Source: Ehretia macrophylla (taxonomy: Eukaryota > Streptophyta > Magnoliopsida > Boraginales > Ehretiaceae). Taken from it: DNA of 64,000 bases. Where the stretch lies: positions 2,754,501 to 2,818,500 of the forward strand of contig CM075768.1 of the NCBI GenBank assembly GCA_037974665.1, in the 5' to 3' direction. Below the pieces are notes generated by a model. The model had not been told where the DNA came from. It made no database searches and saw only the letters and a list, made by a program, of their open reading frames with translations. The position numbers and the translations under genes are program-made. Of the stretch, positions 5,587 through 64,000 are shown piece by piece. Position 1 is the first letter of the stretch, and the number at the start of each line of letters is the position of its first letter.

Positions 5587-6760
5587 GTGAGAGAAAAATT
5601 CTAGATCTCAAAACTCATCTTTTATGTTTTTGCGTAGAATTGATTATTGAACCGTTAAAATGTTAATTTGATGTTAGATTATTGCTCCATGCATGCTAGG
5701 GATCATTTATATGTATTCTTGTGAGATTTGAACCGTTGTAGCATAATTATTTATTTTCGGGTATTTAAAGTTGATTAATTTGTTAAATGTTGAATATTTT
5801 GAGTTGTATTGGTTGAAATCGATTGCCGTCGATTTCTAAAAGTTTGTTAATTACGTGGTAGCGCCGTTGTAATGCCAAATTTTTGATTGCGAGGTCGGTG
5901 CTAAAGTCCGGAAATTTCAGCCATGACACACTAGGGTTTTAGGGTTATTGGGCATGATTTGGATGGGTTTTGGTTGGTTTCCAAGGGGGCTAATGTAGTT
6001 GATTGAATGGGTGAGTGATAGAAACTGGTTTGGAGTTGTTTGGATTAGTAGAATGTAAGATATGAATATTTGAACTTTAGGTTGTCTTTCTTTAAAATGT
6101 TAAGTTATGCCTTTAGTTGATTGGGTGTGGTTTGAGTGATTGAATTGTGAGTTGATGATGGGTAAACTAGGGTTTGATTGCGTGTTTAATGCATGTTCGG
6201 TTGGATGGCCTACTTTGTCATCTAACTTAGTTATTTGTTGTTAAATTGATTATTGATGTTATTATGATGATAATATGATTATTGATTGATTATTGATTGA
6301 TGATTGATGAACCGGGAGATAGTCAATGGAAAAGGTTGTCCTCCTGTGAATGATTGATGTTTATTATTATTACTGAGTCTTTGGTATGTGTGTGCCACCT
6401 CTCGGGCAACATTGGGCTATCGGGTTGATAACGGCATGACTACCAAAGACTACCTCCAGCTCGCACGGCGAAGGCGTCATGGAAGGAGAGGTTATTGAGG
6501 TACCTCGGGTGCGTGAGTTTATGGGAGTCACAATAAAGCTATTATGATCGTGATGGCGTTTGGAGCTATACCAACTAGTGTATCATTTATTGAATGGTCA
6601 TTATAGTTTATGTGATGATAGTATTATTGATGTTTATTTGTGTGTTTACTTGCTCAAAGGATCATTTTTCAAGGAGTATAGTGAATACTGTTAGAGATCT
6701 ATTGGATCCTCACTGGACTTATTTTATATAAGCTCACTCTCTATTATTGCATGCTTACAG
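5587..6760 (+). other. Candidate LTR-internal intron (element A)
   Basis: The donor ATCAAAG|GTGAGA and acceptor TGCTTACAG|GTG match plant splice consensus. Equivalent positions in other LTRs of the window carry the same two sites (see the LTR entries and the finding). Splicing itself is inferred, not shown. Confidence 0.55.
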
Positions 6761-6852
6761 GTGTTGTAGAGCAGGACTACGGGTACGTGCCTCCTGAAGA
6801 GGAAAATGTGCCTTACGTGGATGAGTCTTATGTTCCAGAGTCTTATCCTTGA
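6761..6852 (+). other. Short acidic ORF after the LTR acceptor site
   Basis: Read two bases after the acceptor, this frame is open for 29 codons, rich in Glu, Asp, Tyr and Pro (VVEQDYGYVPPEEENV...), and ends in TGA. The reverse-strand solo LTR at 18896-21566 has the same peptide pattern (VLEQDYGYVPQEVENV...) in the same phase. No upstream ATG was found in the first exon, so translation is unproven. Confidence 0.45.
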
Positions 6853-7273
6853 TGTTTGATGTGTTGAACATCTTATTATCTTGTATATTATCTAGTTAAC
6901 TTTTATATGCTTTGTAGTTTATAATGTATAAGATGTTGAAAAGATAATGAATTAGTTGATACTATCTTAGTAGTCTTTCTTTTGTCTATGTATAGGTTGC
7001 TAGGTTGGTATCAATATATTTTGCAATGTATATTAAGGTTCATGTATTATGTTGGAACAGAGGCGTATAACGAGGAATGATTATTGTATAATATGGTTAT
7101 GATGTATGTTGTTATTTTATTGAGGAGTTGTTTGTTGTATGGTTTATGGAGTTGATGTATGATGTTCTATTGAGGTTAGTTTAGAGCCTCGGTGTCCTAT
7201 TTACTGTCATTATACTGCTGAAATTCCGTTGCGTCCTGACTGATTATAGGAGGGGTCGAGTTGGGGCGTGACA

Positions 7274-7725
7274 CTCACCCCTCTTTTGATCAATTACAGG
7301 TGAGGTAGTGCCCGAACAGACCCTTCAAGTTGATGATAGAGAACCATGGTTCGATGAGAATGATTTCTGCTTGTTACGACTAGCATGTTTGATTAATTGA
7401 AGTCAAACACTACTTAGACAACTCGATATATGTAATATTCTTTTGGACAACTATATGTATTTATGTTTAGTATTCATATTCTTTTGGGACCTAGACACCT
7501 AATTGTTGGCTAGAACTTATGATGGAACAGGTAACTCGAGGTCTTGTACATATATGACTATTTATGGAATCCTTTTCTAAGGCTGATGTAATTGAAAGAC
7601 TCTTGAACAGTTATAGAGTACATATGAATGTTCAGGTTATTAAGATATAAATTTTATAGATTTTCGAGTTACGAAAGTCAGGTACTGGCCTTAGCCTTCG
7701 CAGGTGTCTGGGTCGGGGCGTGACA
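7274..7725 (+). repeat. 3' end of an older LTR interrupted by element A
   Basis: The sequence resumes with CTCACCCCTCTTTTGATC, then ATTACAG|GTGAGG, and ends GGTCGGGGCGTGACA at 7725. This is the 3' part of a chromoviral LTR, whose upstream part should lie left of element A. The acceptor-like site is at 7299/7300, followed by an acidic frame (EVVPEQTLQVDDREPWFDEN). AAACT after 7725 would be its target duplication. Confidence 0.8.
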
Positions 7726-7729
7726 AACT

Positions 7730-9057: not shown

Positions 9058-9070
9058 TTAGGGGGGGAAC
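9058..9070 (+). other. Polypurine tract of element B
   Basis: TTAGGGGGGGAAC directly precedes the TGATAAGGGGG start of the LTR. This fixes the element as plus-strand, and so fixes the extra ORF as antisense. Confidence 0.85.
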
Positions 9071-10228: not shown

Positions 10229-11452
10229 ATGCTTCCTTTCCTGTTTTTCCTAATTTTCTTGTTATTTAGTTGTTCCAATGTACAGAGAGTGGTTTCGTCT
10301 CGTTGCACAACCGTGACCGCTACAAAAACATTCGAGAAATGCATGACACTTTCTTCACAAGATGCCTCCATTGCCTGGACATTTCATCCTCATAATGCAA
10401 CTCTTGATCTGGTCTTCTTTGGTAGCTTCATATCCCCTTCCGGTTGGGTAGGATGGGGAATCAATCCTACTTCTCCAGAAATGAGTGGAACGCGTGCCTT
10501 GATAGCATTTCCTGATCCTAATTCCGGCCAACTAGTGCTGCTCCCATACATCCTAGACCCCACCGTGAAGCTCCAACGTAATCCACTCCTCTCTCGCCCA
10601 CTTGATATTCACTTGCTCTCTTCATCTGCTGCTTTATACGGTGGTCGTATGGCCACTATACACAATGGCGCTTCAATTCAAATATCTGCCACCTTAAAAT
10701 TGGTACCAAATAAAACTAAAATTCATTATGTCTGGAATCGTGGACTATATGTCCAAGGTTACTCCCCTACTATCCACCCAACTAGTATCAATGATCTTTC
10801 GTCCGTTGCAACCGTTGATGTCTTGTCTGGCATTACAGCCAAGGGACGCAACAATATTCAAACACTTAAACAAGTTCACGGGGTCATAAACGCCATTTCA
10901 TGGGGCCTTTTGCTACCATTTGGTGCACTCACTGCTCGTTACTTGCGACACATACAAGCATTAGGACCAGCGTGGTTCTATGCTCATGCGGCCATCCAAC
11001 TCTCTGCAATTTTCATAGGAACCGTAGGTTTTTCCATTGGTATCCGGTTAGGAGAATTGTCACCAGCAAGGGTCTACGGGCTGCATCGAAAACTCGGGTT
11101 TGCGACATTTTGCTTAGGTTGGCTTCAGACAATGGCTCTGTTTTTTAGGCCGAAAACTACACACAAGTTCAGAAAGTACTGGAAATCATACCACCACTTT
11201 GTTGGTTATGCTTGTGTTGTTTTAGGAGTTGTCAATGTCTTTCAAGGTTTTGAAGTGATGGGAGAGAACAGGTCGTACGCTATGTTGGCCTATTGTTTGT
11301 CCCTCTCCACATTGATTGGGATCTCTATAGCTTTGGAAGTCAATTCATGGGTTTTATTTTGTAGAAAAGCAAAAGAAGAGAAATTAAGAAGAGAAGGATT
11401 CATCGGAGGTTCTGACAAAGGAAGTGCGTCAAGCCGTAATCAGATCAATTAA
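10229..11452 (+). CDS. Cytochrome b561 and DOMON domain-containing protein, 407 aa
   Basis: A membrane haem protein predicted to move electrons, usually from ascorbate, across the plasma or an endomembrane. Residues 1-24 are a hydrophobic signal peptide. Residues about 45-185 are a DOMON domain with YVQGYSPTIHPT at its end; M85 and H183 are plausible haem ligands by analogy with AIR12-type DOMON proteins. Residues about 205-380 are the b561 core, with the four conserved histidines in KQVHG (H217), WFYAH (H253), GLHRKLG (H286) and YHHFVGY (H322), and hydrophobic spans between them. The tail is charged (RKAKEEKLRRE). Length and single-exon structure fit the plant CYBDOM family. The ATG at 10229 begins the signal peptide and no upstream in-frame ATG is needed. 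No damage is visible. The physiological role is not evident from sequence. Confidence 0.95.
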   Translation: MLPFLFFLIFLLFSCSNVQRVVSSRCTTVTATKTFEKCMTLSSQDASIAWTFHPHNATLDLVFFGSFISPSGWVGWGINPTSPEMSGTRALIAFPDPNSGQLVLLPYILDPTVKLQRNPLLSRPLDIHLLSSSAALYGGRMATIHNGASIQISATLKLVPNKTKIHYVWNRGLYVQGYSPTIHPTSINDLSSVATVDVLSGITAKGRNNIQTLKQVHGVINAISWGLLLPFGALTARYLRHIQALGPAWFYAHAAIQLSAIFIGTVGFSIGIRLGELSPARVYGLHRKLGFATFCLGWLQTMALFFRPKTTHKFRKYWKSYHHFVGYACVVLGVVNVFQGFEVMGENRSYAMLAYCLSLSTLIGISIALEVNSWVLFCRKAKEEKLRREGFIGGSDKGSASSRNQIN

Positions 11453-13880: not shown

Positions 13881-15055
13881 TAGCTCCATCCAATCCATAG
13901 GTTTGTAATAGTTGTACTGCATACTATGTTTGATTGAGCAAAATTCCGTGGATGAACAACTTCCATGCCGAGGAAAAAATTGAGCTTACCCAAATCTTTC
14001 ATGTCAAAATGTTGAGATAAGGAGCGAAGAAAATCATCAGTGTGATCTGAAGAGCTCTCAGTTATAATTATATTGTCCACATATATGAGCAAAAAGATGA
14101 CATGCTGAGAGGAATACTGAACAAAAAGTGAGGCATCATGAGGAGAATGAGTAAAATTGCAAGATAGCAAATAGTTACTGAACTTTTGATACCATGCTCT
14201 GGGTGCCTGCTTGAGCCCGTATAAGGATTTACGAAGCTTGCAAACATATTGAGGATGAAGAGAGTCAACAAATCCCTGAGGCTAGCTCATATAGACTGTC
14301 TCAAAAAGATCCCCGTGTAAGAACGCATTTTTGACATCAAGTTGTTTAAGAGCCCATTTGTTTTATAATGCCAAGGTTATAATTAGTCGAATGGTTCCAC
14401 GACAGACAACAGGGCTAAATGTGTCACCGTAATCACGTCCTAGTTGTTGAGTATAACCCTTAATAACGAGGCGGGCCTTGTACCGTTCAAGAGAGCCATC
14501 TGCACGTTGTTTGACTCGGTAAACCCATTTACATCCGATGATATTCATGTTTGGAGTAGTAGGCACCAATGTCCAGGTTTGATTTTTAAGCAAGGAGTTG
14601 AATTCTTCTGCTATGGCCGCACGCCAGTGAGGACATTTACTAGCTTGACTATAGCACATTGGTTCCAAAGGTAATTGATTAGCAACTGAAATAAGACACT
14701 GAGGTAGTGGATATTTAGTGGATAGAAGGACCTTCGGACGATGAGTACCGTCCATGGTTCTGGTGATCATTTGGTACGTTCTAAGATGCTCAATATTTGA
14801 TTGAGCTTGCTGTTGAGTAGCTGCAGATTGTGACGCAGAGATATCATTGTGAAGTGCATCAGCCGAACCATCTGAAGATAAATCATGTCGAGAGGTATCA
14901 TGCTTAGTGGAAACAGATTGTGATGTAGAAGAAGTCACGGTTAGAGCATCAGGCTTATAGGCTGAAAATTCATGGCAAGTTGTAGGTTGCATGGTGATGT
15001 CATCATGAGCAGATGATAAGAGGTCAACACATTGTTGTGATGGAAACGGCTGCAA
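13880..15055 (-). pseudogene. Reverse transcriptase domain of Copia element C
   Basis: Copia RT motifs in order: HWRAAIAEEFNSLLKNQTWT, GCKWVYRVKQRADGSLERYK, ARLVIKGYTQQLGRDYGDTF, then a frame change near 14360, SLYGLKQAPRAW-like sequence near 14200, and the active site. The catalytic box reads YVDN (about 14072-14083) rather than YVDD, so a metal-binding Asp is lost. The region before the RT is a Ser/Gln-rich variable linker. Several frameshifts separate the blocks. Confidence 0.92.
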
Positions 15056-15360: not shown

Positions 15361-15997
15361 CTACAAAAGAGGAGTAGGCATGCGATTAATTAGAAAGACA
15401 GCAGTGGAAAACGCATGGTGCCAGAATACTTGCGAAAGATGACTATGAGCCAATAGTGTGAGGCCTGTTTCAACAATATGCCGATGCTTCTGTTCAGCGA
15501 TGCCATTTTGTTCAGGAGTCCTTGGGCAAGATAATCTGTGTAGAATACTATGTGTTTTAAAAAGGGTTTGAACAGTATGAGCCATGAATTCACCACCAAC
15601 ATCGCTTTGCACAAATTTAATCTTGGCATTATATAGATTCTGAACCATAGGAATAAATGTCGAAAATATTTGAGCCACATAGATTTACGATATAATGGAT
15701 AATACCAAACATATCTGGAAAAATCATCAATGAGAATCAAATAATAACGAAATCCATCAAGAGAATTTGTAGGGGCAGGACCCCATACATCACAATGAAT
15801 ACTCTGAAGTACATTAGATGCTCTAAGTACAGGACCATCAAAAGGTAAACGTCGACTTTTGCTTAATTGACAACTGTCACATGGAAAAGATAAGCTAGGA
15901 GCGGCAATTATAGGAACATGGTGATAAAGCTGTCGAATAACACGATCAGAAGGGTGTCCCAAGCGTGCATGCCAAATATGCGAAGACACTTTATTAG
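15361..15997 (-). pseudogene. Integrase region of Copia element C
   Basis: The GAG-pre-integrase segment and HHCC finger are visible (IWHARLGHPSDRVIRQLYHH ... CDSCQLSKSRRLPFDG). The DDE core follows: HCDVWGPAP, VQSDVGGEF and PEQNGIAEQKHRHIVETGL. A frameshift near 15680 splits the core. All three acidic positions appear present. The N-terminal part is fused in frame to a gag fragment by a deletion (see gag entry). Confidence 0.92.
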
Positions 15998-16394
15998 CGA
16001 GAAAACCAAATTTGCCATAAAGAGCACGAGATTGGGTGCCATAAAGAACCTCCAAAGTTGTCCAAGTTGTACAAGCAGTTGCGGCATCGACGACTTGAGA
16101 GATGACAGAGTCAGACAAGGAAACAAGCAACCACCCAAGTACTAACTAATCCAAATGAACCAAGGTCGCAATAGCAATGGCAAGAGTCATGGGCTTAGCC
16201 ATGGAGCCATCAATGAAACCAAGAAGCCCGTGGGAACGCAAGACGGGATACACCTGCGTCTTCCAGAGAAGAAAGTTGTCACTGCCAAGCTTGATAGAGA
16301 TTTCCTAAGCAATATTGGTGACTGTGGGCAGAGACGCCACATTAGTTGCAGTGGAGGCAAAAGAGTCACTGTTGTGGTAAGAAGTGGTTGCCAT
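15998..16394 (-). pseudogene. gag fragment of Copia element C, fused to integrase by deletion
   Basis: The frame starts at the ATG at 16392-16394 (MATTSYHNSD...). It carries the Copia gag N-terminus (ISIKLGSDNFLLWKTQVYPV, GFIDG, then CTTWTTLEVLYGTQSRALYG). Two TAG stops occur where Gln is expected. After KFGFLANKVSS the frame goes straight into the GAG-pre-integrase motif IWHARLGHPS. The rest of gag, the zinc knuckle and the protease are therefore missing. Confidence 0.88.
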
Positions 16395-18334: not shown

Positions 18335-18895
18335 GTTGAGGGGTCACTTCTGCTCAATCTCACATTTGTTGGCTTCGGGCGTCGTGCCCCCGTCCTTGAG
18401 TCTCGGGGGTTGTGCCCCCGGTCTTCATGTCTTGGGGGTCATGCTCTCAAGCTTGAACCTCAAGGGTCGTGCCCCCGACCTTGAATCTCGGGGGTTGTGC
18501 CCCCGGTCTTCATGTCTTGGGGGTCATGCCCTAAACTTGAACCTCAGGGGTCGTGTCTTCGGCCTTCATGTCTTGGGGGTCATGCCCCCAAGCTTGAACC
18601 TCAGGGGTCGTGCCCCTGGTCTTCATGTCTTGGGGGTCATGCCCCAAACTTGAACCTCGTGGGTCGTGCCCCGATCTTCATGTCTTGGGGGTCATGCCCC
18701 AAAGCTTGAACCTCGGGGGTCGTGCCCTTGGCCTTGAGTCTCGGGGGTAATGCCCTCGGTCTTCATGTCTTGGGGGTCATGCCCCCAAGCTTGAACCTCA
18801 GGGGTCGTGCCCCCGGCCTTGAGTCTCGGGGGTTGTACCCCCGGTCTTCATGTCTTGGGGGTCATGCCCTAAACTTGAACCTCGGGGGTCGTGCC
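18335..18895. repeat. 28-bp GC-rich minisatellite, left part
   Basis: Monomers of about 28 bp follow the pattern CTTGAGTCTCGGGGGTYRTGCCCCCGG in tandem. Three monomer variants (CTTCATGTCTT, AGCTTGAACCTC and CCTTGAGTCTC starts) give 56- and 85-bp higher-order periods. Each monomer has an inverted repeat GGGGG-TCATG-CCCCC. Open frames through it are a by-product of the periodicity. It lies between integrase and the 3' LTR of element D. Confidence 0.92.
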
Positions 18896-21566
18896 TATCA
18901 CACCCCAACTCGACCCTACCTACAATCAGTCAGGACGCAACGGAATTTTGGCAGTATAACGACAGTAATTAAGACACCGAGGCTCTAAACCAACCTCTTC
19001 ATAAAATCATACAACCAACTCCACAAACCATTCAACAACCAACTCCTCAGTTAAATTAACAACATCCAACATAACCATATTATACAATTATCATTCCTTC
19101 AACAATCCGTTCATAGTTATACACTTCCGTTCCAACTTCGTACATAAACTATACATACATTTCAAAATAGATTATAAACCAACTTAGTAATCTAAACATG
19201 ATCAAAAGAAAGACTACTAAACCGTCATACATAAGTCTTATAATTGAGTAAGCTATACAATATGACATATTACAACAACTAAGACAAATTCATGGCAATG
19301 ACTTCGGCACACAAGACTCGTCCACATAAAGCACATTCTCAACTTCTTGAGGCACGTATCCGTAATCTTGCTCAAGGACACCTGTATGCATGCAATAATA
19401 GAGAGTGAGCTTATATAAAATAAGCCCAGCGAGGATCTGATAGATCTCGAGCAAGGTCTACTAAACTCCTTGGAAATAATCCTTTGAGTCAGTAAACACA
19501 CAATAACATCAATAATCATTATAAATGCAACAATAGTAATAACTGTAAACACATAATAAGGATACAATACATTTACTAATGAAGCTCCGTACACCAATTC
19601 CATGCTCAACAACTCCTCCAAACTCAATGACACAATTCCTGAGGTACCTTGACCTAGACCCACACCCCATGGCCTCTCCACCCATGCGAGATAGGGATTA
19701 GCCATGATAACTGTGCCCGCAGCCCAGGATGCCTCCCGAGGTGACACAACATTATCAAAGCTCACAACAATGAGACTTAACATAAATAAACCGAGAGATC
19801 AGCAACAAAAGTGCCCGATTCCCGTACTCAATAATCAATAAATAAACTGGGAGATCAGCAACAAAAGTGCCCGATTCCCATACTCAATAATAAATAAATA
19901 AACAAGGAAATCAGCAACAAAAGTGCCCGATTCCCGTAATCAATAATCAATCCATAATCTGAGAGATCAGCAACAAAAGTGCCCGATTCTCGTAATCAAT
20001 AATAAATAAATAAACTGGGAGATCAACAACAAAAGTGCCCGATTCCCGTAATCAATAATCAATCAACAATCTGGGAGATCAGCAACAAAAGTGCCCGATT
20101 TCCGTACTCAATAATAATCAATATAACATCAATATAACATCAATATTTAATTAAACAACAAACAACTAAGTTAGATGACAAAGTAGGCCATCCAACTTAA
20201 CATGCATGAAACACGTAATCTAACCCTAGTCTAACCATTAACAACTCACAATTCAATCACTCAAATACCACCCAATCATCTAAAGGCTCAATTCAACAAT
20301 TTAAAGAAAGACAACCTAAACTTCAAATAATCATATCTTACATTTTACTAATCCAAACAACTCCAAATCAGTTTCAAACACTCACCCGTTCAATCAACTA
20401 CATTAAGCCCCTCGGAAACAAACCAAAACACATCCAAATCATGCCCAATAACCCTAAAACCCTAGTGTATCATTGCTGAAATTTCCGGATTTTGGCACGG
20501 ATATCAAAATCGAAAATTCGGCATTACAACGGCGCTACCACGTAATTATCAATCTTTTAGAAATCGACGGCAATCGATTCCGATCAACACAACTCAAAAT
20601 ATTCAACATTTAACAAATTAATCAACTTTAAATACCCGAAAAATAATAAATATGCTACATCCGTTCAAATCTCGTAGTATTGCATATAAATGATCCCTAA
20701 CATGCATGGAGCAATAATCTAATATCAGATTAACATTCTAACGGTTCAATAATTAATTATACGCAAAAATATAAAAATAACATTTTGAGATCTAGAATTT
20801 TTCACTCACCTTTGATGTGTTTTGATGCAAGAAATGTGTAGAATGGATGCCAAACAAGTGAAACCAAGCTTTGAATCACTCAATTCGGCTTTGAAATGCA
20901 AAATCTATGAGAAAAATGCTTTGAAAATGCCTTCATCTTTCTCCTCCAAGGAGCCACGGTTTTGTGTGTGTTTTTGGAGTGTTTTTGTGCTTTGGCAATG
21001 TGTGTTGATGATATATGCATGAAAGTCAAGATTTTAAATGATAGTCAAAGTTGAAACTTTAGTGTTTTTAGTGTTTTCTTGACTTTAAATGCATTTTCTT
21101 GATCACCAAAGTTCAAAACAATTATGCAACACCCAAGTTATCTCAAGTGGGTTATTTTTAGGTGACAAGAAGTTTTACAATCAAACAATTTCACCCGAGT
21201 CGGCTTAAAACTCGATTTTCGCAAAAGTCGGTGTAAAAACCCTAATAAATTCCTAAGTCGATTTTAAAACCGTTTTAATCAAAAACAGGTCTATTAAAGA
21301 CTGTGGACTAGGTCTAGAAGGGTTAAAAAGACCATTTTCAAAATTATAGCGGACGTGTTTTGAAAATACTATTCACTAAAAATCGACGATAAAATTTCTG
21401 ACTTCGTTTTTTATGAAAATTTCATGAATGCACATTTAGCACGTATTAGGAGTATTGACATCAAAATTATAACATTCTAGGTCATATAGCACATAAACAG
21501 GTCAAATGCACGCAAAATGAGATAAAACACGTAAATCGAGTTAAAGCAGAAAAGTGGGGTTTCACA
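18896..21566 (-). repeat. Solo LTR of the element A family (2671 bp)
   Basis: Plus-strand ends are TATCACACCCC and GGGGTTTCACA. It is flanked by a perfect 5-bp duplication GTGCC (18891-18895, 21567-21571). No internal retroelement sequence is present, so it is a solo LTR from LTR-LTR recombination. On its sense (minus) strand it has donor CATCAAAG|GTGAGT at 20810/20809 and acceptor GCATACAG|GTG at 19382/19381. The short acidic frame after the acceptor matches that of element A. Confidence 0.95.
19786..20116 (-). repeat. ~57-bp tandem repeat, about six copies, inside the solo LTR
   Basis: The unit around GAGATCAGCAACAAAAGTGC plus an AT-rich spacer (AATAATCAATAAATAAA) repeats about six times. 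The corresponding part of the element A LTR (about 6290-6340) has a single related copy. The array lies inside the proposed LTR intron. Confidence 0.92.
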
Positions 21567-42400: not shown

Positions 42401-44100
42401 ATGGCTTTGTAACTTTGAAATGCACATAGGAGAAGAAAAGCTTGGCTAAAGAAAGGGGAAAAGTAGTATTTGGCTATTTTGATACGTCTAGTGCTTGTAG
42501 ATGTATTATCATGTACTTATATGATTATCTAAAGTGTAATTGAGCTATTTGAGTAGATTGTGGGAAAAGTAATGATGTTTGCCTCTTTTGAGACTATAAA
42601 GCTATCTCGTGTATATGTTGACTTATATTGCAATTAAACGCGAGTGCGGCCTACTTTGTCGACCCTCTTATTTGTTATTCATTGTTTTTTAATCTTTTGG
42701 TTTGGTTTCGGGGTTGCGCAACCTTCTCGACATGGTAGCGTCGAGAAACACGGGTGGCATCGGGCTTGCCGTGCTCCCTCGACTACCTTGGTGCCTATTC
42801 ATTTTCTCACTGAGTATACTCCACTACCCCAGAAGCGTGGTTCACCTGCTAGGCATATGGACCTACCTCAGGAGAAAGGGTCGTAGGATCGGGATACATC
42901 TGGAGTATCCTATAATTGAAGGAGTAAGGGTTTGCCCGCACTTGCGTGAAGTTCGTGGCTTGTGGTATGAGACTGAAGACTGAAGTGGAACCATATCCTT
43001 TCTAAAATGTGGTCAATTACTTGACTATTTGATCTTGTTGCTTTATGTTATAATTATAGCTTTCTGTGATTGAATATCATATTGCACTCCCGGTATGCTG
43101 TATTACCTCCCTCGCTGGGCAACATTGTTGCTCACTCCTCATTTAACATGTTTCAGGAAAAGCTGAGGTGAATCCCCAGCTAGTAGCAATAGAGGAAGAA
43201 GAAGATGTGCAAGTAGATCCGATTCCGTGATTCTTGTGTGATAAGGTTGATTTTAATGTGAAGCTTGCGTGGAGTTGTTGATTGTTGTCTTTTATGACTT
43301 TGGGGTTCTTGTATATATTTGGTAGTTGAAACAACTTGTAGTCTTGTATGACGGATAGCAAAGTTAGATGGCAAGTAATAATAGATTCTAGTTTACTTCT
43401 CTTATTGCATGCTTGTATGTTAATAACTTGGTAGTAGAACTTGGTTATAGCTGTAACCAACTACTTATTGTTAAAGTTAGCATTGTCTTGCATGCTTGTG
43501 TGCTATAAGTAGGTGTATGTTGCTCCAAGGCTCAGATGGCCTGGAGATCTTGGCTTGACTATGAATATCTTGAAGGATAGGTTGTATGTGTTGTTGTTGT
43601 GAACCAAAGATTATATGTGGCTATTTGCAAGAAACAGTTTAGTCCACAGTACAGAGGAGACTCTATCCGAGTGACGGGTCCAGACTTGACCTTTAGCGTG
43701 GAGTTGGGTTCGGGGCGTTATACCCCCATTTCTTATCCCTTACCCGATTTTCCCTTTTCTTTTTCTTTTGTTTTTTCGCTTTTTTGTTTTGTTATGTATT
43801 AATAAGGTCTTGGTCAAATGCTAGGTCAATGCAAGAACAAATAAAATATCACTAAAAGTTAAATGACTACTAATGGAATGCCCTTTTATGATAATGCCAA
43901 GCATTTCCTAAAATGTTGAAAGACTACTAATTCATTAACAATTTGTCAAATTAAATGAAATGCCACTTTAATTACAATTACATGAAGTTTAATTGTACAT
44001 ATCACATTCAAATAATAAATTAAGCAATTAAATGCACAAATTACTTCAAATAATAATTAAAATAAGTAAATGTACATAAATTTCACACTTGGGTCTCACA
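39484..44100 (-). repeat. 3' LTR of element E (about 2.15 kb without nested LTR)
   Basis: Plus-strand ends are TGTCACGACCCAACTCG and GGGTCTCACA. The sense strand has donor ATTAAAG|GTGAAG at 41111/41110 and acceptor CCATTTCAG|GTG at 39950/39949, followed by the acidic frame EAEVEPQEK-stop. It is interrupted at 41251-43722 by a plus-strand LTR. Confidence 0.87.
41251..43722 (+). repeat. Solo LTR nested in the element E 3' LTR (2472 bp)
   Basis: Starts TGTGACGCCTGAG and ends TTCGGGGCGTTATA, with flanks CCCCA and CCCCC (one mismatch). Donor-like TAATT|GTGAGG is at 41825/41826 and acceptor GTTTCAG|GAA at 43156/43157, followed by the acidic frame KAEVNPQLVAIEEEEDVQVD. No internal retroelement sequence remains. 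Confidence 0.88.
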
Positions 44101-45656: not shown

Positions 45657-48600
45657 TGTAATACCCGTGCCCAAGTCGATTCGGAATAAATTAATATTTT
45701 TTTAAAAATGACCGTTAATGTTTAAAAAAGTAATGAGTAGTGTGAAATGTGTCGAAAGTGATACCGGGACGTTTAAGATGGATATCGAGTTCAATTAAGT
45801 AAGTTATACTCGGAAGTTAAGAGTAAATTTTAGGCCATCTTTGGAATTAAACTTACACCAATTGGGAAATATTTAGGAGGAAAATTACATATGGTTGGAA
45901 AGATCTACGAGTCTAGTTTCTAATGCTTTGAACCGTTGGTGAATTGGAGTTTTCTAGAAGACGTTATGGTTGTTTTCGTAAAGTGTCGCAGAGTTGTTTT
46001 GTTACGCGAGAATTGATTGACCTTTGACCAACTTAAGCTTATAAAACCCAAAAAATTCAGCCAAAAAATGTCAAAAATTCTTCTTCTTTAGCTAAGAACC
46101 CTAGCTTCCATGAATAGTTATTTTCATCTTATTTTCCTAAAATTGAGAGATAGAAGTCGAATCAAAACCTGAGCCAAACATATTCGGACTCACCTCGGCA
46201 TGCTCTACCTTTCTACCGATCGTTTTGCCTAATTTTTTAGAAAAAAATTTAAGGTGAGGGTTTTTATAAACTTGAGATTTCTGAAATTTTAGTGCATTTA
46301 TATGATTTGTGATGATGGATTCTTGCTTAGCTAGTCAAACAATGGAGGAAATGTGTTGGTAACTTGGCTTGATATCACTTGAATTTATTTCTACCATTGA
46401 AGATGCTTTGAGTTATTTGATGAATTATAATAGATTCTAACCAAGTAAAAGTGCCTAGGTAATGCTTATAAATGTTGCTAGAGGTTGCTAAAGCTTGTAG
46501 TAGTTGTTGCAATGAATATAGAAGCAAAATAAACAAGATGCACATAATAGCTTGTTCTGGACAAACTGGTGCAGTTGGACATTTTGGTTCGTTTGAATAG
46601 ATGGATCATTTTTAAAAAATTTGGAAAAATTCCAGGTTATGATAGACCCATAAAGAACAATTCTTATGTTGAAAGGTTTCTGAGGAAAAAGCTTTTTCAT
46701 GTTCAAAAGCACTCATTAAAATAGGTTACAGGAATTTTGTTGAAACTGGACAACTTACTGCCTTGAGTTTCTTTTGTGTATTAAAAATAGTAAATGACCT
46801 TGGAATCGAACGAAACTTTCACAGTAGCCATATTAGGTAGTAAAGAACAAACTTTATGTTTTAAGGAAAGTCAGATTCTAACGTTTAAATTCTCTGAATT
46901 TTCCATTTTCAAAATGACTCAAGAATAGCATTCAATCTGGACAGTCAAATGTAGTTGCACTAAATTGGTTATAACTCAGTCAATTTAGATTGGAATTGAG
47001 TTTTGTTTGATTCTAGAATTATCTAAACTCAAAGGGCTTTAAGTTGATACCTAAAACAGAGTATTTGGAGTTCGGGTTGATAGGTAACTGATTTGCCAAA
47101 GTTAGGCCATTACAGTGGCATAGGCATTGGCTTAGATTAATTAGTTAAGTTCTCATGCTTATTGTATTGGATTAAATGGCTAAGTTATTAGTTTCTACTA
47201 ATGTGTAATGATGTTGTATGACCTTTAGATGTGTTAGGATACTTGAGCAATCGTTAATATGAATTATATTGCTTTATTTCTCGTTATTTACCCGTATGCT
47301 ATAAATGTCAACCATGTGCTATTCGTGAATTCAATACCAACTTGATTGTTATAAATACTCATATTAGGTGAAATTGAATTTGAAATGGTGTTAAAATGGG
47401 TTGCAACCACCTAGTTTTGGCCTTGTAGTGTGCATACTACGTCGGACATCTTAAGGGTGTAGGTGATCTTATGTCTACCATGGTCGGTATTCCTTTCTTG
47501 CTTGGGAAAATCTCAATTTCGCCGGAGAGTTGGATGTAGGGTCGAGTATTATCTGGAATACTCTATTGGAGAAGATAGGGAAGAAGATGTTAAACATCGT
47601 AGTCAGCCAGCCACCGCTTGAAAATGATCGAATTGAATGGGTAAGCTGTTTCTTACTTAGTATGTGATTACCTACTCTCGCTTGGTCCCTAGAGGTCCTC
47701 GGGGAGTAGAGTTGATTGCTTGTTATTGTTTCACATGCTATATGAATGCTTGTTATATTGTAAGGTACATGATTTGATTCTTGATTGTAGATATTACGTG
47801 CTCAAAATTTCGTGTTTATTTGATATCTACTTATTATGGCTATCTGGTTTATTGTTATTGATTTGAACTTGCTTGTTAAGTGCATTGCACGAGCATGGAT
47901 TTGAAAAGTGATTTTGAAAGATAAAATGATTGCGAAAACCCTTCCCAGATTTCCCCCTCGTTGAGCTTTGGTGCCGGATAAGCTCACCCTCATTTTTTTC
48001 CCTTACAAGTGATTCGAAGATTGAGACATAGAAATAGAAATTGCGTACTCATCATGCTATGTTTCTTAGTTACGGAAATGTGTAATTAATGTCTTAGTGA
48101 TGAAGTTTGTATAATATGTGCGATTTGTATTGATGTAATAGTTAGAGGTTATAACTAGGCTACTTAGAATTCTACAAATGCATGTTTGAGTTATTTTATA
48201 ATATGAGGTTGTGGATTGTATGTTGGGAACTATTACTGTATTGTTGGTTGGGAGTTGAGGAACTGTAGCGAAGGATTTGGAGTTGTGGTTTGTGGCTTTT
48301 TTTTTTGCTGGTTAAAACTAGAATATCCAAAATACAGCCATTGTACTGTCTGATATTCGAGGAAACTATTAATAGACTAACAATTTGACTAAGTATGGAT
48401 CGGAAATTGAATCAACTAAGCTATAACCAGATTTAGTCCCTCGACTAGGGTAATTAAAATTTTGTAATTTGGAATTTAGTAATTGAAAAGTAATTATTTA
48501 ATAGTCTTGAAATTTTGAATTGTGGTTATTAGTGCTCGGGCTATTGTAATTGTGTCTTAGCGGACTTAGGCATAGCGATCTTCTTAAACCCATGGCATCA

Positions 48601-51078: not shown

Positions 51079-54000
51079 TGTAAGGCCCGACATAAAACTT
51101 ATGTCCATTTGCATAATCCTATGTGCATATACAAGATTATATGTGAACTTATTTTAAATAAATATTCGATTAATATGAGCATAATTTAGTAGTCTTCTAA
51201 TACCCTTAAATATTTTGATTAACTTAATAAGAAAAGCTTTGACCATTTCACTTAGCCATTTTATTTAGAAAGTTTAACTTGATCACGGCTTTCTACTTAA
51301 GTGGACTAGTTGACTAAGTCTTTTTTACACATATAATATAGCATATAAAACCGAAAGAAAGAAAAAGAAAAAGAAAAAAAGAGTGAGATGGTCGGCCATA
51401 GGAGAGAGAAAAGAGAGTTTAAATGCTTAGTGTATGATAGAAGCTTTGTCATAAAAGTGTAGTTGCCGAGTATCCTCACATTCATAGCTTTAGTGCCAAG
51501 TGTAGTCTTCATGCAAGAGTTAGCTAACTTCTTGGTTACCTTTGAACTAACTAGCATAATTCTAGCAACAAACAAGCTAACTAATAAAACTACTAGCTAT
51601 TTACAACAAGCTAATATAACTCCTAGTTACAAATAAACTAAGTGGTGATACAAACTAGGCAATCACTACACACCACATTATATACATACCTAACCCTTAT
51701 AAAACAACACATAACACAAAAGAAATAGAGAGAGAGAGAGAGAAAGAGAAAGAGAGAGGGAGAGTGGACGACCAAAGGGAGGAGAAAGAGAAGAAGAGAA
51801 GAGAAAGAAAAAGTGAAAGAAAGAAAGAAACCTTGGGAGCTAGCTTCAATCCTTGCCATTCCTTGCTTCATTTTTGCTTGATCTTCATCAAGGTGAAGGA
51901 TTAAAACTATTTTTGAAAGTTTTTAAAAGTTCATAGTGTAACGACCCCAACTCCCCAACCCTTCCCAAGATTAGGTGGAGAGTTTGTGCAAGCAAAACCA
52001 TTCTCATTCAGTTGATAAATAGCTAACATATAACAGATAAACTAGACTATTATATATATTAAAAAGCTTTCCTGATACAACCATGATTACAAACTTCCCA
52101 ACTACCAGACCCTACATTCAACAAAACGAGTCTGGTTAACTAAACTATCACATCTACTCTTCATACATATAACCATAGTAGATAACATAGGCTGTCATGC
52201 ACAGACCTAACCTGATATCTACTACCACATCATTGACTATAATGTCATACACCGGGTAGTGTGGTACGTCCAGGTCCACAAGTTATTCATTATAAAAGTA
52301 GTGACGGTGTACGATAATGTCAACATCCCTTGGAACCAGGAGATCTAGGTCCCTCATTAAACAAAATAGACATATTATTATATTATGGTTCTACTTCTTC
52401 AGTTTCACCTGAAATGGGGGGAAGAAAGGGGAGTGAGCTCAAAAGAACTCAATGCGGGGGAGTCACCGGGAAACTTTTGAAAATGTTTTTTGGCCCTTTT
52501 AAAATCATGATGCAATGCAATTCAAGTATATTAATATATAAGTAACAATTATAAATCATGTTGCAAAGGATACAGTTTGATTTCACTTCTCGAGATGGCC
52601 GGCTGAATCATGATCACAACTTCCTATCTCTCCCAATAGGGTACTCCGAATTGTACTCGAAATCTACAACCCAACTCTCTGAGGGTGGAATGCCAAGCGA
52701 GAGAGGGAATAGGACTACGATAGACACAGGAACACTGGCAAGCCCTATGCCGCCCGGCGTTCGTGCAAGCTATCGTGCCTGAGGTTGCAACCCCTAATTC
52801 CAATAGCACACAAGCATGCACAGGTAATCATATAACACACAGTAGATAGTATTTTGATAAGCATGTATATGGGGATCAACAAAAGAGGTTGTCAAGGATA
52901 GGCTAATTCACCAATTAAACATAATCATTTTCCTGTAACTCTAATAAAATAGTAGCTTGTAAGAGTAGATTTCATAATTTCACTGATTGTTGTCAATTAA
53001 GATGTCCAGTTATTATTGTTATTGTTAAGGTTGACAACAGGTAGATGATTAACCAGCAAAGTAGGTAACGTTTAAGTAAATTAAAACCTAGTTGAGTATT
53101 TTTGTGGAGACAAGGCTTTTTAATCTTTTATATCAAACTTCTTTTGAATTTATCTAACTCACTAGGATTAGTAATACCTTCCCGTAATACCAACTTATTT
53201 GCAAATTCAAGATATTTAGTAGTGCTTTTAGTAAAGTGACATAAGTAACTTTTCCAACCTATCCATACTTATGGGCAGTGATTCAGATTAAACTTATATT
53301 CAATAATATGTAAATAAGCTATCTTAACTTAATAGAAGTTACGGCTAGACTAAATTTCACGTGGGCAACGTTTACTAAATTTTAAGGAGAATAAATTGGT
53401 TTATAATAATTCCTAGTTATCAAACCTCTTAAAGCTATACCAACTAGCTAATACTTACTAAGCAGATACTTAATCAAAATCAAAATCCATCGTGTTTATA
53501 AGTTCTTATAAACGACTAGGAATATAAACTTCATGCTTATAAAGTTTTCCACGCAGACTTGTATATATGTTTCTAGCATGCTTCATGTAAAGCTGACATA
53601 TAAATCTAGTGATAAAAGAGTAAGTTGATATACATATAACATGTCATATAAAAGATCAAAACTACTCCATATATATATCCTAGTATATATAACACACAAT
53701 AAACAATGCTTTAAAAGAAAACCCGCACCTTAGCAAGCTCGAGTGCAGCTAACTTAATAAGCACAGGCAGATTACTTATATGTAACTTAGCTATTTGTTT
53801 ATATATTAATTGTGATATTCTCCTTAAAGCCGAACACCAAGCTTTATATAGAGTTTCAATTTGATCTTATTGAATCAAGATGGCGGTGGAAATCATATTA
53901 CGCAATGCACCTATAACGCCTTAGGTGTCCATCCGTATAATGACAGCACCACGTAGCAAGGCGCTGATTCATGGTTCACTTGTTCGACAACAATGGTGAT

Positions 54001-57000: not shown

Positions 57001-57657
57001 CTCCCTTTTCACCCTCATCACTGAGCTGCTATAGCTCATCCCTCTTTTAATATTTCAAGTGCAGCCGAGGCCGAGTATGAACTTCAAGATGTTGGGGATG
57101 ATTCGTGTGCTTGATGTGCTTGGATTATGTTGCTTGTTATGCTTTCTCTCAAGTGATGCTATTTGTTTTATGATATAGAACTTTGGACGTGGGATATGTG
57201 TTAAACTTATGTTGTTTATCTTGAGTACTTACGAACTTTAAACTTTATGGCGTGTATGTAATTAAGTATTAGGAGTTTATGGACTTGGCTATATGATATG
57301 TAAATCGCTAGTTGTCCCTTTTGAGGCCTAGGTGATTTTTTTTTGACCATGTTATGTTGAATCGGGTAGTTTGGATACAGATAGAGATCATTTGTGTTAA
57401 TATTGATATGACAAAAATTGACTCAAACAGTGTTGACAATGCAACCAATTAAATTTTAATTTGTTTTTGAAGAGCTTAAGCTACAGGAATTAGGAATGAA
57501 TAATGAAGAAAGGGTCACGGTTACCTAAGGAATATGAGAAGCTTACTGAGAGTATCAAGGAAAATGACTTTAACATAAGTATATTTAAGTGTTATAACAA
57601 ACGATTGACTGTCGCGTCTGGACTTGGTTCCGTAAGGGGTCGAATTGGGGCGTGACA
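51079..57657 (+). repeat. 5' LTR of element F (about 3.2 kb without nested LTR)
   Basis: Starts TGTAAGGCCCGACATAA and ends AATTGGGGCGTGACA, eight bases before the PBS. TATA-like ATATAAAACC lies near 51332. Two purine-rich leaders (51350-51420 and 51705-51835) look duplicated. Donor CATCAAG|GTGAAG is at 51892/51893. The acceptor position near 57058 reads TATTTCAAGTG, followed by the acidic frame AAEAEYELQDVGDDSCA. It is split at 51937-55335. Confidence 0.9.
51937..55335 (-). repeat. Solo LTR in the element F 5' LTR (3399 bp)
   Basis: Plus-strand ends are TGTAACGACCCCAACTCC and ACGGGTCTTTACA. A perfect CATAG duplication flanks it (51932-51936, 55336-55340). The sense strand is minus: donor TGCTAAG|GTGCGG at 53729/53728 and acceptor CCATTTCAG|GTG at 52409/52408, then the acidic frame ETEEVEP-stop. 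The insertion lies about 45 bp inside the host LTR's own proposed intron. Confidence 0.94.
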
Positions 57658-57664: not shown

Positions 57665-57680
57665 GAGGTATCAGAGCATA
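57665..57680 (+). other. Primer-binding site of element F
   Basis: AGGTATCAGAGCATAG is close to the initiator-Met type TGGTATCAGAGC and lies a few bases after the LTR end. Confidence 0.85.
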
Positions 57681-57907
57681 GTTTCATAAGCTGGGATAGG
57701 ACTCTCGGACTGTGGGGTAGACATCTTAATGTGAAATGTGATTTGAATGAATGTTTGTGTATGCCTAACGTGATATTTATGTGCTATGTGTGAATTGTAT
57801 GATACGTGTTCAATGTGCCTTAAATGATGCATATTTTCATATGTATATATATATATATATGCATTGCATGCATGCTATAACCATGAGTGACCTGTCTATG
57901 CCAATAG

Positions 57908-60900
57908 ATGGCTGGAGGTAGAACCCGTAGGGGCACAGATCCTCAAGAAGCAGGAAATGTAGCTCCACAAGATGTTGGGGATGCAGAGGAGTCATCTATC
58001 GGTGAATAGATGCTGAGTAGAATGGCAGCTACTATGGACCGGATAGCCCAAGTATTTGAATGACAGGCTGCAAGAGAGGCCACTGGTGCAGGGAACAACA
58101 ACAGTGCTGGCAGTAGCAGCGATGGCAATAGAAACGGTGGTGATGGCATGTTAGAAAGATTCCTCAAGTATAGGCCCCCGAAGTTCCAAGGAGAGCCAAA
58201 TGATGAAAAAACAGAGGCTTGGTTGGAAAATTTCGAGACTACTTATGGTGCCCTCAACTATAATGATGACAAAAAGATTACTTTTGCGGTATTCCTATTG
58301 GAAGGTGATGCTCGTCAATGGTGGAGGACAGTGAGTCTGCAGTGGGAGCAACAACGCACTCCACATACATGGGGTAATTTTGTGAAAGCTTTCAAGGACA
58401 ACTACATCTCGAAGATTGCTCGAGAGAATTGGGAAGAAGAATTCATGTCCTGCAAATAAGGGAGTTCGACTATTGCACAATACGAGGCCTGATTTCACAG
58501 GCTGTCTCATTATGCTTCGAAGTTGGTCTACACTGATAGTAAGAGTATCAGGAGGTTTATCAAGGGCTTAAGGCCAGAAATCCAGGACAACTTGGCCCCT
58601 TTCCAATTTACCACCTATAGTGAGGCTGTGACACCCCGATCCCTCTCGAGACCGGGTGTTCTATCAATCGATCTAAACACAACCCAAACTAAACCCGGCC
58701 ATAAATTTTCAGGGAAAACGGACGGAGTCTCCCCTGTTTCTAGGCGAAAAGTAAAACCTGCGACAGCATATAAGTGGACCAATACCATGTCCAAACATTC
58801 AACCACCTCAAGGCCATCCGAGCCTTGGTTCACAACAAGCAAAACACCAGTAAATATACATTCAAGCTTAGCAATTAAACTACACCAACCTATATCATAA
58901 GCTAGACTATCATACCTTTCTATCTCTTTTCCTTTGTCATTACAAATATACATTGAAGTTAAGCTACATTAACTAAATACATAATCTAGTGAAACTTAAA
59001 TTACATCCCCTTTAACATTAAATACATATAATACATAAAAGCATACAACTTTACAACTTTGACAACTCAAGTCACATAGGCACGCAGGACAACTCTTCAA
59101 GCACAGACTTTCACGAAATCACGAACTCTCCAGCTAACATGGCATTTCCTGAAATGTGGTGGTGAGGAGTGAGTATACACAACACGTATACTCAGTGAGG
59201 GCGAGACAGATATCGAATTGGAGAGAAAGAAAGTCGTGCAATGCAAATAAGACAGTTAAGCAATATAATTGATAAATAAGCAATCAAAACAAATAATCAA
59301 TACAATAAGCAATTACTGAAAGCATTAACACAACCATTCAAAGCTATACCACACTTTGAAGGCTATGGTTCACTCATACGAGCAATGTACCATTTCACGA
59401 GCGATACATCAATCTCGAGCTTGATGTTGACAACGATGACAATAAGCGCGCATCCACCTTATAATACCAGTTTGGAATACCCCGAAAGTATCCATCAATC
59501 TACGACCCAAATCTCCCTGGGAGGCAGCCCAAGCGAGAAGAGGGAATAGCTACAGAGCTAGAGCAACCAACACTGGCAACCCGAGGCTACCCAGAGAGGC
59601 CCATCACTCACGTGCTGACACTATGCAATACAAGACTCGATACAATGCAATAAACGAGCGATAGCACAACAATACAAACTAGTGACAACAAACGAGATAA
59701 CAAGCAATCACAATCAATACTAGCATTCAACTAACTTTTCAAGCATAACAAGTAAAATCACAAATCGGCCCCAACTATCAAAACACTACCATTTCCAAAC
59801 GAGCCACGAGTTCTGGAAACCGACTTCGCCAATCCTCCTAGGTCACCATAAGGCACGTCCAAGGACCCCGAAACCCTACTTTACCCTAGAATTCGCGCAA
59901 AGCCCCGATTTCTCCCTTTGCTCGTTTGAACTACAACTATATCAACCAAACACCCAACAAATGCCATAATCACACCAAAAGTGCTTCCATGGCCTCCCGA
60001 AACAATGCCAACACGCAAAACGAGAAAACGCCAAACTCGACCTAAACGACCCCGACTTTCACAAAGGCATAATTCACGTTTTTTCCACTACGCAACCCAA
60101 ACAAACCATGCATTTAGGCATTCTAGCATACCTAGCACATTTCTACATCAACGGAAAGCATAACAGCGCAACTTCAAGGTTTTACTATTCATAAAACACT
60201 ATTCATTAATCAATTTAAATTACAATCTCAACATTCAACCGCAGAAAATGTTAAAAAGCTATAAATACATGTTCTACAATTGCCAAGGAACATTCTAGTA
60301 GCATCAAAACGCTTTAAATAACAATCTACGGATAAATTTTAAAAATCAAAGTTTAGATACAAATATTTCAAATGCACAAATAACGATGAAACCCTCACCT
60401 TAGACGCTCCTAGACACTAGGAAAACCTCGTAGGATGCCTCAGAAACCACCCCGTGGAAGCCCTCGCGAAGAATTGAAGATTTGGTTTGAAATCTTTTTT
60501 TTTTTCTCCTCTCAAATTTTCGGCCTTGCTATGTTCTGTTTCTCAGCTCTTTTATTTTTTGTTTTGTGCTTTTATTATGCAAATAAGGTGACAAAGGGTC
60601 AAAGCCCCTTGGTCAAACCACTTAAACTTGGTCAAACTAGCCTATTTTCATGCATTTTTAAGCTAAAACAACTATGGAAATATTAATTCTAGCTAGCAAC
60701 AATTAAAATATAAAATTTAAGTCATCTAAATACTAGTTTCACTATTTGCTGAGGACTAGAAACCGATCTCTACCTATCGCTCTCGATATGCTATGCACTT
60801 TGCGTCAACCAAGAAGTGACAATTAAATCTTAAAGAATCTAAGAAATATATCATTTTTGAAAGGCATCATAGTTTAAAATTTACTCTGGCTCGGAGCCAC

Positions 60901-61736: not shown

Positions 61737-61739
61737 AGA

Positions 61740-62240
61740 GGAGTTGCCCAAAGGAGCCGTAATTGTGGAAGGTACATTCCTAATTCTGAATCAACTGGTT
61801 AAAGTATTAATTGATCCTGGTGCCACTCATTCCTTTTTTACTCACCCTTGTGTGCACATGTTAATATGCAAGTTGAAAAACTACCTTATAAAGTTGAGGT
61901 TAGTACACCTATAGGATTTAAGTTTTTAACTAAGTCGGTGTGCAAGGCTTGTGGAATACTAATAAAAGGCCAAGAATTCTCTGCTGACCTTATCTTTCTC
62001 CCCTTCCAAGACTACCAGGTTATCTTGGGAATGGACTGGCTTGCAAAACATCATGCTCAACTAGATTGTAGAACCAAAGTAGTGAAGTTTCAGGTTCCGG
62101 GCCAACTATTGGTAGAAGTCACGGGCAATAGCAGTTTTTTGGGGAATTCCATTATCTCGTCAACTAAAGTTGTTAAGTTTATAAGAAACGGATGTAGTCG
62201 ATATCTTGTCTACCTAATCAATAAGCCTCAAATAAAGTAA
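61740..62240 (+). pseudogene. Protease domain of element F, active site altered
   Basis: The motif reads VLIDPGATHSFF at about 61806-61841, with Pro in place of the catalytic-loop Ser (DSG in element A). DYQVILGMDWLAKHHAQLDC lies at 62009-62068. A frameshift near 61855 separates the two halves. The stop at 62238-62240 ends the frame before the RT. A retropepsin with DPG is not expected to be active. Confidence 0.9.
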
Positions 62241-62242
62241 AG

Positions 62243-62872
62243 TTGGAGAAAATCCTTGTGATTCAGGAATATCCAGATGTGTTCCCGGAGAAATTACCTG
62301 GTTTGCCACCAGAGAGGGAGATCCAGTTCGTGATTGAGCTACTACCAGGCACTCAGCCGATATCCAAAGCTCCTTACCGAATGACACCAATAGAGCTTCA
62401 GGAGTTGAAGATACAATTACAAGGGTTACTGGAAAAAGGTTTTATCCAACCGAGTTCATCGTTGTGGGGAACACCGGTATTGTTTGTAAAGAAGAAAGAT
62501 GATACTGTGTGATTGTGTATTGATTACCGAGGGCTGAATCAAGTAACAGTCAAGAACAAGTATCCATTGTCGTTGATTGATAAATTGTTCGATCAGCTGT
62601 AGGGAGCCAAAATCTGTTCTAAGTTCAACTTGAGGTAGGGATACTATCAACTATGTGCCCGTAAGGAGGATGCGTCAATGTCCGCATTCCGTACTCGATA
62701 TGGACATTATGAGTTCGTGGTGATGCCGTTTGGGTTGACCAATACACCAGCTGCTTTTATGGATCTCATGCACAGGGTGTTTCGGTCGTACTTGGACCAA
62801 TTTGTGGTGGTCTTTATTGATGACATTTTAGTGTACTCAAAGTAAGAGTTCGAGCATGAACAACACTTGCAC
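62243..62872 (+). pseudogene. Partial reverse transcriptase of element F
   Basis: In order: [57 protein letters not shown], a stop-containing segment around SKFNLR-stop-GYYQL (62622-62650), [18 protein letters not shown], and the active site [12 protein letters not shown] at about 62809-62845. The family's Asp in motif A (KFDL) reads Asn. The reading then stops and is cut by an LTR at about 62873. RNase H and integrase are off-window. Confidence 0.92.
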
Positions 62873-64000
62873 TTTAATGCCTCGATCCCATACCCGCGGT
62901 CACAAAAAATAAGAGAAAACGGACGGAGTTTCCCCTGTTTATAGGACTATCAGTTTACCTGCTCACAAAATATTTTACCACAACCCCATAAGCAAACTCC
63001 TTAATAGTTCCATCCTCATTTACCATCAAATGCAACAAATCCTCAAGGCCATGCGAGCCTTGGACCTCAACAAAAGATCACAACAAGCATGCAGATAGTC
63101 ATAGAATTCCTAAGTCATCAAATTGATTATCATATCACTCTAATACTCTCTACTCAATCTACTTAAAGGTTAAATCCTTCAATCATTTTCCATCTCAATT
63201 CACACAAGGAAGCAAGCAAATTAGACAATGAAGTAAATCCCTAAGTTATTACATGTCGAAACACTAGGTTTACCTTTACTTGTTACATTCTTACAATAAC
63301 AAATATATACAAGGCACGCAGGCCTCAAAAGAACATAATTATCACAAATTTACGTAAAACAATCAACTAAGGCTAGGACATCTATTCAAAGAGACTCTCG
63401 AACTTTCTTTTCCTTAGGCTCCAAAGGCTCCGAACCTGAAATGGTTAGAAAGAATGAGTGAGCATACAAAACGTATGCCTAGTGAGGGAGGGAACTTAAA
63501 ATCAGGGAGTTTGGAAAATAGTTTCGTGCAACGCAATAATCAACAGTAAACAAATTATCAATATGAAACCACTATACATTAAATAAGCTAAACAGTCCAT
63601 ATCAAGAAAGATAATCAACCACAGTAGAACAATTATATTAAGCAATCTAAAAGAAACAATAACAATGTAACACACAATTCACTTATACAATCTATTTAAC
63701 ATAGTTAAGAACACAACAAAGGTAACAATCAAATATAACTCTCCAAGGACTTAGGGCCCAAGCGAGAGGTACATATAAGAAGGATATAAGGTAACTCCTC
63801 AAGAACTTAGAGCCCAAGCGAGAGTTACACAATAAGGAATACTAGTAGACCTTGAACTCGTACCACGAACCACGAACTATGAACCACGAACATAAATCTT
63901 GAGATGATAATGTCAATGATAACGATAAACCAGCATACCACCTTATAACTCCAAAATGGGTGTACTCCAAATGTACCCCGAATATCTTACGACCCAATTC
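62873..64000 (-). repeat. LTR interrupting element F RT, continues past the window
   Basis: From about 62873 the sequence matches the LTR at 35948-38760 (CCTCGATCCC, AAAACGGACGGAGT, CAAGGCACGCAGGCCTC). The start is decayed (TTTAATGCC instead of TGTCACACC). The acceptor AACCATTTCAG|GTT is at 63436/63435, followed by the charged frame SEPLEPKEKKVRESL. The other end is outside the window. Confidence 0.88.

Follow-up and report, generated by a model that had tools for sequence, protein, structure and literature searches.

Spliced RNAs for Gag are known from copia-type retrotransposons. BARE1 makes a spliced subgenomic Gag RNA by removal of a 104-nt intron inside pol (PMC3735527), and the spliced Gag RNA of EVADE (EVD/shGAG) is recounted in PMC12786077; spliced short GAG isoforms have also been reported from Nanopore sequencing of sunflower and triticale. 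Among Ty3/gypsy elements, Ogre (Tat lineage) has a spliced intron (PMC6317226), and Cer1 of C. elegans has, besides an unspliced RNA of 8 kb, a spliced mRNA of 2.4 kb encoding a protein that has N-terminal peptides in common with gag (PMC3315495). Here we describe the long terminal repeats (LTRs) in a 64,000-nt stretch of the Ehretia macrophylla genome (C5:2754501-2818500, hereafter the window) and of one insertion in it, element A. By their sequence, the elements appear to be plant Ty3/gypsy chromovirus-like elements (a Tekay/Del-like candidate) with gag and pol in one frame, and we propose that they probably use LTR sequence in two introns, yielding a Gag-only mRNA. A chromovirus version with an LTR exon is apparently undescribed; in the open-licence literature we found no description of an LTR intron, an LTR exon or a spliced gag in chromoviruses.

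Intron 1, of 1957 nt in element A, would begin at a donor in the presumed R region of the 5' LTR (the R donor) and end at an acceptor just before the gag ATG. Intron 2, of 5465 nt in element A, would have its donor at the gag/protease boundary and its acceptor in the 3' LTR. This is the simplest model in which each conserved site has a use. After both splices the mRNA would join exon 1, which is poor in ATG, to the gag exon and a tail exon in the LTR, encoding Gag with a mostly acidic C-terminus and then a stop. Removal of intron 1 alone would give Gag-Pol, and the unspliced RNA, keeping the primer-binding site (PBS), a structured core, pol, the polypurine tract (PPT) and U3, would be the genome. 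Because splicing would remove the PBS, core, PPT and U3, only unspliced RNA could be reverse transcribed, and LTRs would keep the interval because spliced RNA could not be copied.

This arrangement resembles that of BARE1 and EVD/shGAG in having gag and pol in a single frame, a donor at the end of gag or just after it, an early stop, and an unspliced RNA that would be the genome; the donor at the gag end and the stop soon after the junction are found here, as sequence only. The copia-type intron, however, is short and inside pol, whereas here the acceptor and a coding exon would sit in the 3' LTR, the intron would span all of pol, a leader intron would start in the 5' LTR, and the superfamily is Ty3/gypsy. 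We found no short intron with an acceptor inside pol, the best acceptor in element A being the one in the 3' LTR, 5465 nt away. Ogre is likewise a plant Ty3/gypsy element with a spliced intron, but here splicing would remove pol, and there is no Ogre-type intron between gag-pro and reverse transcriptase (RT), gag to RT being one open frame in the copy at L022. Cer1 is similar in having an unspliced RNA and a spliced gag-related mRNA, but its splicing pattern differs and the available part of its description mentions no LTR exon. In retroviral leader splicing, the packaging signal lies behind the major donor and the PBS before it. On the two-intron model, the elements described here would have in common with retroviruses a leader donor and a structured RNA retained only in unspliced RNA; unlike in retroviruses, the PBS would be removed with the intron.

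The model would bear on how plant Ty3/gypsy elements with a single open reading frame (ORF) produce Gag in excess of Pol and separate translated from packaged RNA. We tentatively suggest, at somewhat less than even probability, a retrovirus-like two-pool strategy written into the LTR, in which the 5' copy would provide a leader donor and a packaging-like domain and the 3' copy an acceptor, a coding exon and a stop; a hairpin over the branch point would set the ratio of spliced to unspliced RNA, and mRNA would never be mistaken for genome. If this is true, a common group of elements has exons in its LTRs, solo LTRs would act as portable cassettes of the promoter-donor and acceptor-exon kind, and the odd Gag tails of some gene models would be explained.

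Splice-site sequences in the LTRs

DNA was examined from the window, 200 kb around it and six further 10-kb stretches (350 kb scanned, of a 1.58-Gb genome in 20 contigs); nearly all results rest on 264 kb of C5, with one extra hairpin copy on C4 (L009). The original prediction listed nine donors and nine acceptors in the window and joined those within an LTR as introns of unrelated chromoviral LTRs. All 18 sites are present, with GT at 9/9 donors and AG at 9/9 acceptors. AAG precedes the cut (shown as /) at seven of the nine donors and GTGARG follows it at six, but the full AAG/GTGARG, thought to occur in most, is found in just four; at the acceptors, G follows AG in all nine and TTTCAG/G is present in six. 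The lengths of the candidate introns were as predicted, eight donor/acceptor pairs spanning 1161-1755 nt, including donor 46253 with a decayed acceptor at 48008 (AA for AG) that was located by a covariance model. Acceptor 7299 was assigned wrongly and belongs to an LTR interrupted by element A. No listed acceptor pairs with donor 51892; its partner might be a decayed acceptor at 57058, if a later insertion lies between them. Nor are the LTRs unrelated in this module, a core and the hairpin being common to the families.

Element A is a whole insertion, with its 5' LTR at L024:7483-9929 and its 3' LTR at 4818-7273 of the window (plus strand, as are all its features); the two are 95.3% identical, flanked by a 5-bp target duplication (CTCAC), and the 5' LTR is followed by a PBS-like GTATCAGAGC, which we take to match initiator tRNA-Met. 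The internal region (1-4817) contains gag, protease (pro), RT, RNase H (RH), integrase (INT) and a C-terminal domain, the region having several frame breaks; these were recognised from ORFs, Pfam RVP_2 and SH3_Tf2-1 matches and a chromodomain-like end. Its 3' LTR carries the R donor AAAG/GTGAGAG at 5586/5587, and a hairpin, CTCAC and acceptor at 6695-6768 (AG ending at 6760), which scores 75.2 bits with the covariance model and is among its training rows. The insertion target was the hairpin of another LTR, and because element A sits inside that hairpin, acceptor 7299 belongs to the interrupted LTR, a family G copy whose remainder (7274-7725, plus strand) has its AG ending at 7299 and its own tail ORF. 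The insertion lies exactly in the acceptor hairpin, window 7274-7725 continuing with L024:7440-7482. As further observations, family A has a AATTTCGAGGACGAAATT-like inverted repeat upstream of the PPT, and the pol frames of families A (window 4785 region) and J (L023:1736) reach or enter the 3' LTR without a stop.

The assignment to Ty3/gypsy rests on domain content. L022 encodes Retrotrans_gag, Ty3_capsid, RVP_2, RVT_1 and RNase H in one frame, and the Ty3-type order gag-pro-RT-RH-INT was found; the integrase-end SH3_Tf2-1 domain is present in L033 and the window. The PF00385 chromodomain is present on some relatives aligning at the pol end, and Pfam gave no PF00385 for the two fragments scanned. 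In an integrase family search of the genome, the inspected loci L005-L008 had no chromodomain-like end.

Upstream of the LTR acceptor the consensus is CCTCaCTgrGY-loop-RGCTCACtC...TTTCAG/G, with invariant columns that include CTCAC.C and T.CAGG among 18 sequences. In the 18-row alignment 94.2% of the stem cells are paired, compared with at most 45.5% when the arms are slid. Among 48 model matches the figures are 95.1% and at most 38.3%, with 42 doubly changed cells; this set contains the 18 training rows, admits weak matches to E 3.1, and its alignment is fitted to the structure. A loose hairpin-plus-acceptor pattern, modelled on the window's own sites, matched 22 times in 350 kb but once each in a shuffled and a reversed copy, so the occurrences are not due to chance, though two or more of the 22 are clearly fortuitous or have mis-set AGs. 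No Rfam family matched the window at the gathering score. CTCAC fits the plant branch point consensus and lies at the usual distance from the acceptor. Because it ends in the 3' arm of the hairpin, the stem could limit its use, and the hairpin could in this way tune splicing.

A second structured region lies between the R donor and the LTR acceptor, within proposed intron 1. This core is common to the families and contains an exact palindrome, GGTTGCGCAACC, in 5/17 rows, along with motifs GGGCTTGCC, TGGGTCGTAGG, CGTATCCTTTT and GCATTGCAC. In 11 selected rows of the 17, 29 pairs are 90.6% paired, compared with at most 50.9% when slid, and there are 23 doubly changed cells; further pair types are no more numerous than in shuffles, and at least as many doubly changed pairs occur in 20 of 500 shuffles. 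From its place and shape we would guess, at clearly less than even probability, that the core serves packaging or dimerisation.

Coding tail, gag boundary and leader

Behind the LTR acceptor AG are two bases and then a short ORF in one phase, which in element A has 29 codons and a stop (6761-6852). Conservation by codon position in family A is.93/.90/.755, and the tail is the top-scoring 90-nt window in the three sense frames of the LTR and begins at the AG; in family J (six copies) the values are.96/.98/.89, and there is an in-frame 3-nt (one-codon) indel. In 18 non-redundant tails, aspartate and glutamate make up 22.5% of residues in the predicted frame and 6.8% and 4.3% in the others. At 47 acceptors (the 48 matches less one destroyed by insertion) the exon begins with G without exception, and AG is kept in 40, with AA in the other seven. 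By these sequence features, the LTR acceptor opens a short, mostly acidic coding tail. Exon 1 was rejected as the coding start of this tail: in the 240 nt before each of the nine listed donors there is no in-frame ATG after the last stop, and exon 1 has no codon signal.

The donor that fits the tail phase lies at the gag/protease boundary. AAG/GTA is present in 10/11 copies, and GAAG/GTA in nine. In the ten copies tabulated by codon (L034 left out), the Glu codon at the donor is GAA in all ten, while each of two nearby Glu codons is GAG in nine; the Gly codon is GGT in nine and mutated in the tenth, and the codon after it has A in first position throughout, although it encodes N, T or I. Over 659 codons aligned between a family A copy and a family J copy, two AG/GTR donors are common to both, and the gag/protease site alone is in phase 1, leaving the one base that the tail requires. 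The junction codon would always be Gly, because the donor contributes a G and the exon starts with G.

A candidate acceptor for the R donor lies immediately before gag, with the ATG 0-9 nt behind the AG in families A, J and G. In family A the sequence is GCTAACTCTTTGATTAGTAG/AATG, CTAAC being present in 6/6 copies and TAG/AATG in five; in element A it reads CTAAC...TTAGTAG/A-ATG (181-203, AG ending at 199, ATG at 201-203), the putative end of intron 1. Family J has CATAACACTTTGCATTCTAG/CTATTCGAGATG (two copies, the ATG mutated in one), and family G has TCTATAG/ATGGC, with CCAATAG/ATGGC in the window. In element A, T makes up 39.8% of proposed intron 1, which contains 83 ATGs, and 23% of the gag exon, which has a GC content of 52.7%. 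The last 150 nt before eight R donors contain seven ATGs, as compared with 21 in shuffles, only one of 400 of which is as low; in the U3 control ATG is not depleted (26 versus 23). Joining the R donor to the acceptor before the gag ATG would give a clean leader.

Choice of splice partners

The original prediction stands in part, in observation as in interpretation. That the LTR contains an exon and an intron bounded by true splice sites is most likely right, as is its view that unspliced RNA must be the replicating form; the pairing of an LTR donor with an LTR acceptor is probably wrong, given a tail that is coding, has no ATG in exon 1 and fits the phase of the gag/protease donor. With the same-LTR pairing there would be an intron in the leader within the 5' LTR and the tail ORF would be untranslated. 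Both sites are good matches, 1161-1755 nt apart in eight pairs, and the DNA between them is more T-rich than exon 1 in 8/8 and than exon 2 in 7/8. We nevertheless consider this unlikely, as the tail is under coding constraint yet lacks an in-frame ATG in exon 1, and there is a better acceptor before the gag ATG; moreover, because ATGs abound in the 400 nt that follow the LTR acceptor (126 against 80 expected), the join would give no clean leader. As a further alternative, a pol-end donor (TCAA/GTAAGAATTTCG) could be the partner of the LTR acceptor, and would supply an alternative C-terminus for the integrase/chromodomain. This is plausible in family A, where the copies read show no stop in pol ahead of the 3' LTR and the donor is in phase 1, but we regard it as very improbable overall and rejected it on the other copies: in family J the join would create a TGA at the junction even though the tail is kept coding, in L025 pol stops before the site, and the L024 copy both stops and is in another phase.

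Equally improbable in our judgement is that there is no splicing at all, the hairpin, CTCAC and TTTCAG forming an LTR RNA element (for termination, packaging or priming) and the tail ORFs being coincidental. The strong structure and sequence conservation would suit such an element, as would an AG no more conserved than its surroundings; but the codon-position signal and the acidity in a single frame begin at the AG, there is a matching phase-1 donor in gag, and gene models of Cornus and Primulina end in a similar manner. These models are among the predicted proteins of other plants, 13 found with a gag-plus-tail query and 92 with a profile (scored among 7993 candidates sharing most words). Cornus florida P0111 (11 members) ends SPSVVRG-HGKEVADDDPPRF and a stop, its relatives P0110 and P0119 continuing SVVRGMFLV, and Primulina P0154 ends TTLLTG-DYVDEETGGGDQGAGLD and a stop, so that both appear to end Gag as the proposed spliced form would. 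Actinidia P0168 ends SIVRGA, and Solanum P0206 (22 members) and Xanthoceras P0121 exit gag at the same boundary; most of the 100 proteins scanned for C-termini lack the motif sought. As an observation apart, in the Solanum dulcamara P0206 models gag is fused at this boundary to the end of pol that holds the chromodomain, which might yield a Gag-chromodomain product.

Several observations weigh against the two-intron reading. The original prediction that the splice sites are more conserved than the sequence around them holds only in part. In family A (20 LTR pieces with 66-95% identity to A, of which two are halves of the same LTR) the local percentiles are 98 for the R donor and 99 for CTCAC, but only 73 for the AG; the small J family has 17 for the R donor and 47 for the AG. 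The AG thus does not stand out locally in either family, and in J neither does the R donor. A single 264-kb region of one chromosome supplied nearly all of the copies. The gag donor of element A in the window is mutated (GAAG/ATA; 1290-1300, last exon base 1295), and L015, the one copy in which the ATG behind the acceptor and the gag donor are shown in frame (1305 nt apart), has two in-frame stops between them. Among the 18 tails, acidity is not clear in L029, L030, L031, L032 and a few more, and the L031 tail has no stop in the stretch read. The tail was found in 0/108 relatives retrieved with a pol-end-plus-tail query, which assumed the wrong donor. Among the gene models, Solanum P0206 and Xanthoceras P0121 continue to other acceptors, Castanea P0134 is ambiguous, Camellia P0146 and Quercus P0139 leave gag elsewhere, and 19/100 of the scanned proteins are flagged as running into protease. 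In triticale long reads 13/15 GAG-RNAs have one intron and the single Ty3/gypsy GAG-RNA has none, according to the accessible part of that report (PMC7765848); the accessible part of the sunflower Nanopore study has Tekay absent from the expressed set.

Copies that had already lost an intron were sought with nine joined 40+40-nt queries, and no true junction-spanning match was found in 350 kb, one family D match being the acceptor itself; unspliced controls gave 17 and 16 (family A), 10 and 16 (A2) and 1 and 4 (C) matches. Nor were LTRs precisely lacking the interval, which the original prediction had proposed to look for, seen in the 350 kb. The absence of spliced LTR or gag junctions is as the two-intron model predicts, for a small sample.

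Further copies and other features of the window

The remaining hairpins, all recognised by the covariance model, lie on both strands. On the plus strand, that at 43097-43164 has its AG ending at 43156 and its R donor at 41825/41826, and that at 47943-48016 has the decayed acceptor (AA at 48008) and R donor 46253/46254; a third, at 57003-57066, also has a decayed acceptor, in an LTR that seems to end at 57657. An acceptor directly before a gag-like ATG (CCAATAG/ATG, 57875-57910, plus strand, AG ending at 57907) is similar to that at L021, and another element has a gag/protease-boundary donor, GAAG/GTACATT, at 61760-61780 (plus strand, last exon base 61771).

On the minus strand, hairpins with acceptors are located at 19374-19447 (AG ending at 19382, R donor 20810/20809) and 36454-36523 (36462, 38153/38152), and at 59141-59213 (59149, 60399/60398). 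Three others have tails that could be read directly: EAEVEPQEK at 39942-40007 (AG ending at 39950, R donor 41111/41110), ETEEVEP at 52401-52470 (52409, 53729/53728) and SEPLEPKEKKVRESL at 63428-63500 (63436), each followed by a stop. Tandem repeats lie next to a family A LTR at 18375-18896 (28/85-nt spacing) and inside it at 19730-20171 (56-nt units).

Fragments judged by eye to resemble Ty1/copia-type integrase and RT are present at 15390-16130 and 14363-15055 (minus strand). Between the retroelements, an open frame at 10229-11452 contains DUF568 and cytochrome b561 domains and is probably a plant gene.

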